DNA from: an uncultured Candidatus Saccharibacteria bacterium
Lineage (GTDB): Bacteria; Patescibacteriota; Saccharimonadia; Saccharimonadales; Saccharimonadaceae
Assembly: GCA_947169915.1 (NCBI GenBank)
Contig: CAMVRN010000003.1
Location: 1-64,000, forward strand
Direction: 5' to 3'
DNA length: 64,000 bases
The position numbers and the translations under genes are program-made. Below the pieces are notes generated by a model that had not been told where the DNA came from, did not search any database, and saw only the letters and a program-made list of their open reading frames with translations. This document shows positions 1 to 21,438 of this stretch, piece by piece. Positions within the stretch are counted from its first letter, which is position 1. Every line of letters starts with the position of its first letter.

Positions 1-862
1 GTGTTACCGCAGCTTCAACCTGCTCATGGTTAGGTCACCCGGTTTCGGGTCTAATACTGCCGACTTGTCGCCCTATTCAGGCTCGCTTTCACTGTGGCTC
101 CGTCAACTGACTTAGCCTTGCCGACAACATTAACTCGCTGGATCGTTCTACAAAAAGCACGCCGTCACCCTTGCGGGCTCCGACACGTTGTAGGCACTAA
201 GTTTCAGGATCTATTTCACTCCCCTCCCGGGGTTCTTTTCACCTTTCCATCACTGTACTAGTTCGCTATCGATCAATCAATATATTTAGCCTTGGCAGGT
301 GGTCCTGCCAGCTTCAAACAGGGTTTCTCGTGCCCCGTTCTACTTGAAAAAAGATATAGTAAGCCTATGACCCTTTCGCGTACGCGGCTTTCACGCTGTT
401 TCGCGGACCATTCCAGGTCGTTCTGCTAGGATCAAAAGGATTGTTTCTTACCTGACTCAGTTAACGCTGTTCATTTTTAGACTGAATGTTCGTAAACCGA
501 CCACTCAATCCAAAAAACATCTCATTTCGCAACCCCTTTCAAGCATTAGACGTTAATCCATACTCCCGTGAGGGAGAACTTAAAAGGTTTGGGCTATTCC
601 AATTTCGCTCGCCACTACTTTCGGAATCGTTGTTTACTCTCTTTTCCTCAACCTACTAAGATGATTCAGTTCGGCTGGTTCCCGCTCCTTATCTTATGTG
701 TTCAGATAAGTGCAATATAATATTACTTATATTGGGTTTCCCCATTCGGAAATCCCCGGATCAATTCTCGTACTCAGATCCCCGAGGCTTATCGCAGAGT
801 CCTACGGCCTTCATCGGTATTGATTGTCAAGGCATCCACTATTAGTGCCCTTATTTACCTTT
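1..862 (-). rRNA. rrl: 23S ribosomal RNA, 5' part (continues beyond left edge)
   Basis: The minus strand matches the 5' third of bacterial 23S rRNA: the start region with GTGGATGCCTTG, then CGATGAAGG, TCTGCGATAAGC, TTTCCGAATGGGGAAACCC and, near the left edge, GACCCGAAACC. The mature 5' end is placed near 862 by comparison with the E. coli start and is uncertain by a few bases. About the first 790 E. coli positions are covered and no intron is seen in this part. The gene upstream on the same strand is pepN, with no 16S rRNA or spacer tRNA, so this 23S gene is transcribed from its own promoter. Confidence 0.97.
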
Positions 863-1064
863 TTATGCATTGACTTAATCTAGCAATCGAAGTTCGATTG
901 TTAGAGCCGTCAATTACAAAATCTTTGTTATTCATCGTTCAAATTGTTAACTAAATCTCGAGAGTGCGAGAGAAACTATTCTCGAATGATTCATTCGAGC
1001 CTTTCTCGCAGTTCGGATTTATCGCTTTTTGTACAGAGGTCAGCAAAACTGACTTGTTTAACTG
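863..1064 (-). other. 23S rRNA leader with nested inverted repeats
   Basis: This is the roughly 200-base transcribed leader between the promoter and mature 23S. It contains a nested inverted repeat: CTCGAATGA/TCATTCGAG (981-999, one-base centre) flanked by GCGAGAGAAA (966-975) and TTTCTCGC (1002-1009). A smaller hairpin CAATCGA-ACT-TCGATTG lies near 890. These are probably processing or antitermination structures; the pairing 3' trailer lies outside the window and no clear boxA was recognised. Confidence 0.6.
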
Positions 1065-1070
1065 TTGTCG

Positions 1071-1099
1071 AGTATACCGCACTTTGCGATTTATGTCAA
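1071..1099 (-). promoter_or_regulatory. 23S rRNA promoter
   Basis: TTGACA (1094-1099), a 17-base spacer and TATACT (1071-1076) on the minus strand form a near-consensus housekeeping promoter. Expected start is about 1064. It sits in the gap between pepN and 23S, which shows that the rRNA gene does not depend on an upstream 16S operon. Confidence 0.85.
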
Positions 1100-1159
1100 C
1101 ACTTTTTTTGAAATTTTTTAGATTTTTAGCAGGTTTGACAGGGGCGTTTGTTTATGTTT

Positions 1160-3595
1160 TTATTTTAGATTATTAATGCTAGATAGAACTGAAGATTTAT
1201 CGGAGGCGATAAGGCTTAAAGTCGATTCGATGTCGTTTTTGGCGACTTTTAGAGCGCGGGCTAGCACTGGATTGGATGAGAGAGGAGTGAAGAAATCAAA
1301 GAATTTATCGGCATCTTCTGCTCTGTCGATGGTCGAGGCGAAATAGCGTGGGTAGTCTTCGATGGATTTTTCCCCGTTGATTTGATAGATATAATCCCAG
1401 TTTTTGAGCATCCAGTCGAGAGCGCGGTCACGAGTGTAGCGCCAGCGACGGAGCCTGAGGAGGAATGATAGGTGGTCTTGCGGTTTTAAGAGAGTCTGCT
1501 CTTTTAAGAGTGAGAAAGCGAAATCGATATTCTTTTCTAGACGAGGTTTTGCAAGTGCGCTCCTCAAATCTGCCTTTAGTTCTGGGTCGTCTGTTGTTCT
1601 GTATGCCTTTTTTACCTCAGGATAGAAGGTTTCTTCGTCGCGCCACATTTTAGCAGAGAAAACGAATGGGCGAATATCGTGAGGTATTTTGTCGTAGTCG
1701 GAAGAATAGAGTGCGCATAATTCGTCGATTATTTCTGGGTCCTTAGAGTAGATTGCGCAGACAAGAAGAGTGATTCGAAGCTCAGAATCATTGAGCTCTT
1801 CCTTTTCTTTCGGGACTAATTCGAGTTTATCTAGAGCTGGTTTTATAGTGGAGTAGATATAGGACTTGTATTTTTTCTCCTCTGGAGAGTCGTAGTCGAT
1901 GAAGATAGTCATCTTTGAAACGATGCCGCCGATGATTTCCCAGATAGGTGCAGAAATTTCAGATTTGAACTTTGAGATGAGTGGAATTAGAGAAGCGGTA
2001 GAAACAATTGGAGTTTCAGAGAGAAGTAGGCGGTCAATAAGAAGACGGATGCGCTGCTCTGGCATTAGGGACTTGAAGTTTTCAAGGGCTTCGGCGAACT
2101 CTGGACCGGACAGATTGATGAGATAATGGCCGGACATGTCGTCTTTGACTTCTGGAATTGGATAGATAGTATCGTCGGAGCTTCCGTCGAGCAAAAAACG
2201 TTGCTGTGCTTCGTCGGTTACGACTGGGTAGCCAGGCTTTGTAATCCAGGCGGTCATAAAATCACGGACGGAGAAGCCTTTGGCGTATGGTTCTAGAGAA
2301 GCCCAGAGGTCACCCGCTTCGGCGTTTTTGTACTGATTTTTCTCGAAGTATTCGTGAATGCCCTTATAAAATGCTGGTTCGCCCATTTCTCGAATAAGCA
2401 TGAACATGAGATGTGCGCCTTTTGCGTATACAATGCATGGGTCGAATAAAGTGGCGATTTCTGCTGGGTCGTTAACTTCTTCGCGGACAGCTTGGACGCC
2501 TTGAATCGCATCGCGATAGAGTGCAGAAAGGCAATCAGAAGTAAAGAAATCAAACCAAGCGCGGAATTCTGGGAAAAGATGGTCGGTTGCGTAGTATTGC
2601 ATGATTGTGGCGAAAGATTCATTTAGCCAGAGGTCGTTCCACCATTTCATAGTGACGAGGTTGCCGAACCATTGATGCGAAAGCTCGTGAGTGATAGTTA
2701 GGGTGGCAGCTTTCTTTACGGCGATTGAGGATGCTTCATTACAGAGGAATTGAGACTCGCGGTAAGTGACGAGGCCCCAGTTTTCCATCGCTCCAGCCTC
2801 AAAATCAGGGATAGCTACTTGGTCGAGTTTGGTTAGTGGATATGGAATTTTAAAGAGGTTATCGTAGTATTCGAGGGATTCGATGGCAATTCTGTTGGGA
2901 AGCTCCAGAAGGTCCTCGCATTGATTTAGGGGAGCGTAGGTGCGGACAGTAACGCCGGTTTTGGTTCCCCCTTCCACATAGTTAAACCTACCAATAGCGA
3001 AGGCCAGGAGATAGGTAGACATCTTTGGAGTAGTTTGGAAGTGCCAGGTGTAGCATTTGTCGAGATTAGCGGTTTTGTCCGTCGAATCTGATTCTGATGG
3101 GAATGAAATCATCTCTCCGCTTATAACGGGTTCAGTGTTGGCGAGGACGATATCGTCTTGGTCTGGAACGGTGATTTCGAGGTCAAAGGTGGCTTTTGCG
3201 GCGGGTTCATCAACACATGGGAAGCATTCCCTTGCGTAGTGGGATTCGAATTGAGTGGAAACGATGCGCTCCTCTTTTCCTTCGTATTCGTAGGTTGAGA
3301 GGTATGCTCCTTGCATATCCTCTTTTATTTTACCGGTGTAACTAATTTCTACCGTTAGAGGAGACTTGGGAGCGTAATGGAAACCGAGAGCATCGTTTTC
3401 TAGGGTAAATTCAACCATTTTGCCGTCGATTTTGACATAACGAATATCGAGACCTACGGAATGCAGTTTTACTATATCAGAGACTTTAGTCTTACCACTG
3501 ATAGTAACGATACCTGTTAGTTCCTTGGTGTGTTTATTGATGAAAAGTTTTAGTTTGTAGGATTTGGGGGTAAAAAAATCTAGAAATCGTTCCAT
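1160..3595 (-). CDS. pepN: M1 family aminopeptidase (PepN-like)
   Basis: This is an 811-residue zinc aminopeptidase of the gluzincin M1 family, which removes N-terminal residues from peptides, probably in the cytoplasm because no signal peptide is visible. The substrate-recognition motif GAMENWG lies near residue 270, followed by the zinc site HELSH and the downstream ligand in WLNESFA. Length fits the family, including the C-terminal helical domain. The ATG at 3595 follows TAAAAT (3602-3607) by six bases with no Shine-Dalgarno, so translation is probably leaderless. In an organism without visible amino-acid biosynthesis it would serve peptide salvage; that role is inferred. Confidence 0.95.
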   Translation of the reverse strand: MERFLDFFTPKSYKLKLFINKHTKELTGIVTISGKTKVSDIVKLHSVGLDIRYVKIDGKMVEFTLENDALGFHYAPKSPLTVEISYTGKIKEDMQGAYLSTYEYEGKEERIVSTQFESHYARECFPCVDEPAAKATFDLEITVPDQDDIVLANTEPVISGEMISFPSESDSTDKTANLDKCYTWHFQTTPKMSTYLLAFAIGRFNYVEGGTKTGVTVRTYAPLNQCEDLLELPNRIAIESLEYYDNLFKIPYPLTKLDQVAIPDFEAGAMENWGLVTYRESQFLCNEASSIAVKKAATLTITHELSHQWFGNLVTMKWWNDLWLNESFATIMQYYATDHLFPEFRAWFDFFTSDCLSALYRDAIQGVQAVREEVNDPAEIATLFDPCIVYAKGAHLMFMLIREMGEPAFYKGIHEYFEKNQYKNAEAGDLWASLEPYAKGFSVRDFMTAWITKPGYPVVTDEAQQRFLLDGSSDDTIYPIPEVKDDMSGHYLINLSGPEFAEALENFKSLMPEQRIRLLIDRLLLSETPIVSTASLIPLISKFKSEISAPIWEIIGGIVSKMTIFIDYDSPEEKKYKSYIYSTIKPALDKLELVPKEKEELNDSELRITLLVCAIYSKDPEIIDELCALYSSDYDKIPHDIRPFVFSAKMWRDEETFYPEVKKAYRTTDDPELKADLRSALAKPRLEKNIDFAFSLLKEQTLLKPQDHLSFLLRLRRWRYTRDRALDWMLKNWDYIYQINGEKSIEDYPRYFASTIDRAEDADKFFDFFTPLSSNPVLARALKVAKNDIESTLSLIASDKSSVLSSINNLK

Positions 3596-21002: not shown

Positions 21003-21438
21003 CAGGTTCTAGGCCGAGTTGTTTGTATACTGTTCCTAGGACACCATTGATGAATTTTGATGAGTTTTCCGACCCAAAGGCCTTGGCTAATTCAACTGCT
21101 TCGTTGATAGCGACTTTTGGTGGGACTTTGTCGTTAGTATATTTTAGTTCGTAGAGGCCGATACGAAGAATATTTCTATCGATGGCGGCGATGCTACTGA
21201 TTGGCCATTCTGGCGCAAGCGGAGTTAAATCCGCATCCAAGCTTTCGGTTTTTTTGACTACATTGCGGGAAAGTTCATAAACAAACTCGGTGTCACCGAT
21301 AGCTTTTTCATATGGGATGATGTTTTTTGCGACAATATGGTCAATGTCGGCGCTGGCGTCGCCCGCCTTGCTTCGGAACTCATATTCATACAAGCTCTGA
21401 AGCGATATGATTCTGCCTAAATGCCGATTTGAAGCCAT
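20902..21438 (-). CDS. nusB: Transcription antitermination factor NusB
   Basis: A 178-residue NusB, an all-helical protein that with NusE (S10) binds boxA RNA to promote rRNA antitermination. The N-terminal [19 protein letters not shown] and the C-terminal [12 protein letters not shown]...KFINGVLG block are diagnostic. The last ~35 residues are an acidic Ser/Glu/Asp tail absent from typical family members (about 140 residues). Its ATG overlaps the rpmF stop (TAATG), implying translational coupling. Confidence 0.95.

Follow-up and report, generated by a model that had tools for sequence, protein, structure and literature searches.

Separated 16S and 23S rRNA Genes with Predicted Promoters of the Same Design in a Genus of Candidatus Saccharibacteria

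Introduction

The genes for 16S and 23S ribosomal RNA (rRNA) are usually adjacent. In Thermus, they form separate units with similar promoters. Unlinked rRNA genes are reportedly widespread, as Brewer et al. are said to have described in 2020. Here we analyze the 5′ part of a 23S rRNA gene located at the start of a contig of an uncultured Candidatus Saccharibacteria bacterium (assembly GCA_947169915.1, contig CAMVRN010000003.1, positions 1 to 64,000; this whole 64-kb stretch is called the window in the following) and compare it with the rRNA genes of other members of its genus and order.

Lui et al. (2021, PMC8172020) describe 27 of 34 circularized genomes of the candidate phyla radiation (CPR) as unlinked, but report an operon for both of their Saccharimonadia genomes. 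The unlinked CPR genomes likewise have 16S apart from 23S or 23S-5S, with no common transcript possible. Whereas the Saccharimonadia treated there are operonic, the Saccharibacteria genus studied here is unlinked, and its promoters, leaders, and relics are described below. Nanosynbacter lyticus TM7x, also a member of the Saccharibacteria, has a non-contiguous rRNA locus in which pyrD and a hypothetical gene lie between 16S and 23S (PMC12424978). In contrast to these two intervening genes, 16S and 23S are found at unrelated places in our genus, 26–360 kb apart in the five genomes measured. In Wolbachia, Buchnera, Helicobacter, Rickettsia, and Thermus, 16S and 23S-5S likewise form separate units; the genomes of the symbionts are reduced, and unlinked operons have been tied to reduced symbiont genomes (PMC7761764). 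Unlike these cases, ours comes with a spacer motif in linked relatives of the order that points to a route. For the rrn operons of Escherichia coli, the roles of boxA and of the leader-trailer helix have been described (PMC10250234). Our locus shares with them a boxA-like element, a predicted 16S leader-trailer helix, a second boxA-like element before 23S, and NusB, but here the boxA-like sequence is itself part of the predicted 16S helix. The largest 16S-23S spacer of one survey was found in Saccharibacteria, and a limit of 1,500 bp is quoted in the same text (PMC10402275); rRNA insertions in CPR are the subject of PMC11270868.

In the texts covered by our literature search, which left subscription journals mostly outside, we found no account of the arrangement in this genus or of a spacer promoter in Saccharibacteria. 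Unlinked rRNA genes as such are already well known, also in CPR, and what is new is this genus and its informative history. They are common in reduced genomes, and the route that keeps a 1:1 output of the subunits is seldom visible. The order contains linked relatives with a 23S spacer motif and an unlinked genus with similar promoters and relic transfer RNA (tRNA) genes, which makes a stepwise route testable. The main interest lies in this plausible intermediate that appears to be preserved in the order. A further consequence is that a long amplicon spanning 16S and 23S should miss this genus.

Results and Discussion

Separation of the 16S and 23S rRNA Genes

With a probability of roughly 0.87, two independent transcription units have arisen in this genus from what was a single rRNA operon, and matched promoters, boxA-like elements, and local helices would maintain their output and processing. 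The genome comprises 770 kb in 12 contigs and is 96% complete, and the window is the start of its contig C3. The original prediction had described the 5′ end of a 23S rRNA gene, preceded by a leader of about 200 nt, a TTGACA-17-TATACT promoter, and pepN. The sequence, the Rfam model RF02541, and the Pfam family PF01433 confirmed this order (Table 1), with a leader of about 206 nt. RF02541 matched with 588.7 bits (cmscan), and no other Rfam family reached its gathering threshold in the window. The window holds the 5′ part of the gene alone, the start of C3 cutting it, and this piece is 85% identical to the 23S rRNA gene of G024, another genome. The prediction that neither 16S nor a tRNA gene lies upstream of 23S also held, as the Rfam scan at gathering threshold and a tRNA search detected none in the window.

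The ends of the rRNA genes were located by nucleotide searches with the 16S and 23S rRNA genes of the genus. Whole-genome searches with Rfam miss short rRNA ends and gave no match in this genome, although the window scan detects the 23S gene. The nucleotide search revealed only two 16S pieces, both at contig ends: 52 nt of the 5′ end (C10:28173-28224) and 44 nt of the 3′ end (C12:19756-19713). The gene order on C10 is gyrB, gyrA, a predicted promoter (TTGACA-17-TAAACT), a boxA-like motif, and 16S. On C12, a strand that complements the 16S leader comes next after 16S; behind it lie a terminator-like hairpin and a SpoU methylase gene (PF00588), and further on tRNA-Ile and tRNA-Ala in opposite orientation; a Pfam check supported the identities of gyrA, gyrB, and the SpoU methylase. 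The 16S gene, for which the original prediction had proposed a search of the full genome, was thus located on C10 and C12 and not upstream of the 23S gene on C3. The only 23S sequence of the genome was found at C3:1-865, and the 19.7 kb of C12 after 16S contain no 23S. The order gyrA-16S-tRNA-Ile/Ala-23S-5S of a linked operon does not occur in this genome. Its 16S and 23S genes are unlinked in the sense used here, being more than about 1.5–2 kb apart with no shared transcript possible.

To cover the genus, 174 genomes were searched, of which 150 matched 23S and 139 matched 16S. Flanks of up to 2.5 kb from the matches listed were available upstream of 23S for 78 genomes (77 of them at least 1 kb long) and downstream of 16S for 57 genomes. 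None of the 78 flanks upstream of 23S contained 16S or a tRNA gene. A 23S gene was present in one of the 57 flanks downstream of 16S, on a contig of G177 that appears to stem from another lineage in that bin, its rRNA being just 72–74% identical to that of the genus. Pieces of this low identity occur on contigs C12 and C65 of G177, where they are operonic, and on C55 and C59 of G166, and probably represent another lineage in these bins.

Among the matches listed, five genomes have the ends of both genes on one contig, at distances of 26 kb (G195), 66 kb (G027), 102 kb (G119), 131 kb (G129), and 360 kb (G034), and in the last three 16S and 23S are convergent. A pepN match lies upstream of 23S in 30 of 78 flanks, gyrA within 2.5 kb upstream of 16S in 23 of 51, and a SpoU-type gene downstream of 16S in 35 of 57. 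The order of pepN and a 23S end was also found in JAUMYE010000040.1 of Candidatus Saccharibacteria bacterium isolate S16M_St_8 (L117). This 23S end is 89.6% identical to that of the genus over 431 nt, and the same promoter type was recognized by eye, the automatic scan not having picked it. In a pepN search of named genomes, from which near records may be absent, the five best matches were Candidatus Saccharibacteria, which places the genome in that phylum; apart from L117, the matches came from more distant Saccharibacteria and, after these, from other phyla. The link between 23S and 5S is kept, 5S following 23S after 215 nt in L020, 224 nt in L100, and 105 nt in L106. As far as sequences can tell, the own genome and the genus flanks examined support the predicted separation of 23S from 16S and its own promoter.

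Two observations concern the 23S-5S unit of relatives. A sequence TTGACA-18-TATACT adjoins the 23S trailer in four of 13 spacers between 23S and 5S (G024, G192, G166, and G195; L020, L108, L114, and L100) and is perhaps a further 5S promoter. In addition, the 23S gene varies in length: about 70 extra nt are present in G034 (C1 26849-26930), and in G195 (C2 91870-92038) 167 nt replace 113 nt of the G024 gene.

Predicted Promoters of the 16S and 23S Units

Promoters were predicted with a scan that uses no motif bonus but demands TTG and TA...T, so that these positions are not independent evidence; such evidence comes from the A-tract, TGCG, and a following AGTYTAA. A predicted promoter with a 17-bp spacer was found in all 50 16S leaders and in 77 of 78 23S leaders, and the distance from the -10 region to the 23S gene was 171–337 nt in the 78 flanks scanned. 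The 16S promoters matched the -35 consensus with a mean of 5.78 of 6 positions and the -10 consensus with 4.20 of 6, the 23S promoters with 4.38 and 5.64, respectively, which gives nearly equal totals of 9.98 and 10.01 of 12. An A-tract, defined as five or more A within the six bases immediately upstream of the -35 region, precedes 47 of 50 16S promoters and 75 of 78 23S promoters. In control windows located 900 nt farther upstream, none of the 19 and 28 best sites, respectively, has one. TGCG is found before the -10 region in 29 of 50 16S and 55 of 78 23S promoters. Judged by sequence alone, each unit thus has its own promoter.

The compound pattern of A-tract, TTGACW, N12, TGNGN, and TANNNT occurs at three sites in the 770-kb genome, including the 23S and the 16S promoter, and at none in the reversed control. 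Most of the genus genomes listed hold none to three such sites and a few hold many, some with TGTG in place of TGCG, and the reversed control was 0 in the rows listed; the pattern serves as a measure of enrichment over this control alone.

boxA-like Elements, Predicted Helices, and Terminator-like Hairpins

Within 300 nt upstream of the gene, the boxA-like sequence TTAACAATTT is present without mismatch in 40 of 50 16S leaders and 67 of 78 23S leaders, and it does not occur in the 208.6 kb that these flanks comprise farther upstream. If one mismatch is allowed, all 50 16S and all 78 23S leaders contain it, whereas control windows do so in 1 of 50 and 5 of 77 cases. We take TTAACAATTT to be identical to the boxA of the E. 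coli rrn operons. A boxA sequence was looked for in PMC4807359 and not found. The window also encodes NusB (Table 1), with 116.3 bits for TIGR01951 at a cut-off of 88.35. A boxA-like element in each rRNA leader together with a NusB gene is consistent with antitermination of both units.

In all 19 genomes for which both flanks were available, the 16S leader from the boxA-like motif onward can pair with the trailer over roughly 20 bp or more, with predicted energies of -30 to -45 kcal/mol. The 23S flanks of 12 genomes pair better with their own partner than across genomes (mean -45.1 versus -38.2). A terminator-like hairpin follows 16S in 53 of 57 flanks, mostly 150–190 nt past the gene (control 10 of 57), which would provide for separate termination of 16S. 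After 23S-5S such hairpins are found in 12 of 13 cases (control 1 of 12).

Linked Relatives and a Proposed History of the Split

One genome was examined per family for 24 other families of the order, and in ten of these genomes a single contig carries 16S and 23S arranged as in an operon. In all ten, gyrA precedes 16S by no more than 1.5 kb, and the 16S-23S spacer contains tRNA-Ile and tRNA-Ala. The two tRNA genes are inverted in G058, G041, and G056. Loci of order relatives with such an inverted spacer pair, which cannot be co-transcribed with the rRNA, are L002, L034, L025, L324, and L330. Within the genus, tRNA-Ile and tRNA-Ala follow within 2.5 kb after 16S in 14 of 56 flanks (one with tRNA-Ala alone; G177 excluded). 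Because gyrA precedes 16S in all ten linked relatives, the simplest reading of these gene orders would be that 16S stayed at gyrA and 23S-5S moved away. In G054 (L010, L022), which belongs to another family, 16S and 23S are on different contigs and gyrA is not upstream of 16S, apparently an independent unlinking.

In six of 11 relatives of the order (G036, G058, G053, G056, G041, and G042), the spacer contains TTGACN or TTTACA, 17 bp, and TANNNT, followed by GAGTTTARG; a looser version is present in G040. A blind search of 392 genomes of the order with the pattern TTGACYRCCTCTGTT-N5-TG-N-TANNNT gave 21 sites in 20 genomes, none of them in the family of the window genome, and none in the reversed control. 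Five of the 20 genomes had supplied the pattern, and the remaining 16 sites were new. All 21 sites lie 182–611 nt upstream of 23S on the same strand and are followed by TTGAGTTTAG (20 sites) or TTGATTTTAAG (one site), and the 23S leaders of the genus start with the similar AGTTTAAGCA. Since the spacer motif of linked relatives marks 23S at 21 of 21 sites, the 23S promoter is probably older than the separation of the genes.

These results suggest how the present arrangement may work and may have arisen. The 16S unit would have remained behind gyrA with its own promoter, a leader-trailer helix, and, in most cases, a terminator roughly 160 nt downstream of the gene. The former spacer tRNAs, tRNA-Ile and tRNA-Ala, would have been left beyond 16S in a quarter of the flanks examined. 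The 23S-5S unit would have been relocated, in this genome to a site behind pepN, and would have taken its promoter and leader along; the promoter most likely came before the move, given the promoter-like motif in the spacers of linked relatives from other families. Equal output would most likely be achieved by the same kind of strong promoter, with A-tract, TTGAC-like -35 region, 17-bp spacer, and TGCG-extended -10 region. NusB may read the same boxA-like signal for antitermination in both units, and processing would remain local through helices at the flanks of either precursor. Promoter firing, boxA function, equal output, and the order of events are what we infer from these data.

A more specific and tentative version, whose chances we put a little short of even, assumes that the 23S-5S part of the operon gained a spacer promoter in an ancestor of the order, that this autonomous unit later moved, and that promoter strengths were equalized by opposite compromises. 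The 23S gene would then have been transcribed independently while still linked, sometimes even with inverted spacer tRNA genes. The compromises would consist of a near-perfect -35 region with a weaker -10 region for 16S and of a weaker -35 region with a near-perfect -10 region for 23S.

Alternative Explanations and Conflicting Evidence

The original prediction named a misassembly as its alternative, i.e., a normal 16S-spacer-23S operon wrongly joined to pepN. Contig C3 does end inside 23S, as do many contigs of the genus inside rRNA genes, but 30 of 78 genus flanks and JAUMYE010000040.1 show the pepN-23S junction as well, the 16S 3′ end of the genome runs into a different contig, and the five genomes with both genes far apart on one contig, among the matches listed, show the same separation, so that an assembly error is hardly credible. 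It is equally hard to believe in an operon that has been stretched by intervening protein genes, like those of Nanosynbacter lyticus TM7x (PMC12424978), but is still transcribed as one, even though the flanks reach at most 2.5 kb and longer spacers would escape notice wherever contigs are short. Terminator-like hairpins mostly 150–190 nt after 16S, the convergent genes in G034, G129, and G119, the distances of 26–360 kb, and the 19.7 kb without 23S past the 16S gene on C12 speak against it.

An additional solitary 23S gene beside a complete operon elsewhere in the genome appears improbable. An assembly of 96% completeness could conceal a collapsed second copy, but the searches of the genome yielded a single 5′ end and a single 3′ end of 16S and a single piece of 23S, and in the genus 53 of 57 16S flanks have a terminator-like hairpin and 56 of 57 lack 23S within 1.5–2.5 kb. 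Slightly less probable still is an accidental promoter-like sequence with transcription of 23S from the pepN promoter. The position of pepN directly upstream on the same strand would agree with this, yet 48 of 78 flanks have no pepN match in the stretch examined and nearly all show the same promoter type at 171–337 nt. A split into two independent units remains our preferred explanation.

Several results weigh against this explanation or parts of it. In the own assembly, the nucleotide search did not find the rest of 23S, including its 3′ end, or 5S. The compound promoter pattern is not exclusive to rRNA, with up to 20 sites in some genus genomes (G196), and it is absent in 30 of 174 genus genomes; such misses are partly expected, as rRNA contigs are often absent and many 23S promoters have a -35 region other than TTGACW. 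Within genomes, the scores of the 16S and 23S promoters are uncorrelated (r = 0.16, permutation p = 0.28, 22 genomes), and the match therefore concerns design and average score, not fine tuning. The earlier notion of matched promoters accordingly stood with respect to the common design and the near-equal mean score, but not with respect to fine co-tuning within genomes. For the 16S helix, the own partner was the best in four of 19 genomes and cross-genome pairing was about equal, indicating weak covariation. In a duplex test with long windows, the own mean was -61.8 versus -60.6 for cross pairs, and the own partner was best in none of 19. The predicted 16S helix speaks for conservation more than for covariation. 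Because the boxA-like motif in the 16S leader sits within this helix, pairing alone could conserve the motif there. As to the history, the spacer motif was not seen in the linked relatives G049, G052, and G059. When seven spacers were compared without gaps, conservation reached 5.3 of 7 in the promoter block, compared to 4.7 in the 60 nt before and 3.9 after it, so that the block is only modestly more conserved than the preceding 60 nt. The 23S promoter of the genus lacks the core CCTCTGTT and resembles the spacer motif in the hexamers, their spacing, and the following AGTTTARG alone. Because the genus promoter does not share the CCTCTGTT core, the argument for homology is one of position and of the short downstream motif.

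Features of the Window and a Further Promoter Site

The features of the window that are relevant to the 23S locus are listed in Table 1.

Table 1. Positions of the 23S rRNA gene, its predicted expression signals, and related genes in the 64-kb window.
Feature	Position	Strand	Basis
23S rRNA gene, 5′ part	1..864	minus	RF02541 model positions 1-762 of 2925
23S leader between -10 and gene, about 206 nt	865..1070	minus	sequence
Predicted 5′ strand of 23S processing helix	865..906	minus	inferred from 12 relatives with both flanks
boxA-like element TTAACAATTT	941..950	minus	exact motif match
-10 element TATACT of predicted 23S promoter	1071..1076	minus	consensus over 76 aligned genomes
Extended -10 TGCG	1078..1081	minus	shared with other 23S and 16S promoters
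-35 element TTGACA	1094..1099	minus	17-bp spacer to -10
A-tract, seven A, directly upstream of -35 (UP-like)	1103..1109	minus	
pepN, M1 aminopeptidase, neighbor upstream of 23S	1160..3595	minus	PF01433/PF17900/PF11838
nusB, factor expected to bind boxA	21019..21426	minus	TIGR01951 above cut-off, PF01029

The third site of the compound promoter pattern in the genome (G000:C4:45922-45958; L318, near 1501-1537, minus strand) is located before an intergenic sequence of about 340 nt. A comparison of this sequence with Rfam gave nothing at gathering threshold and implausible weak matches alone at a relaxed threshold. The intergenic stretch ends in a long hairpin and possibly represents an undescribed stable RNA.

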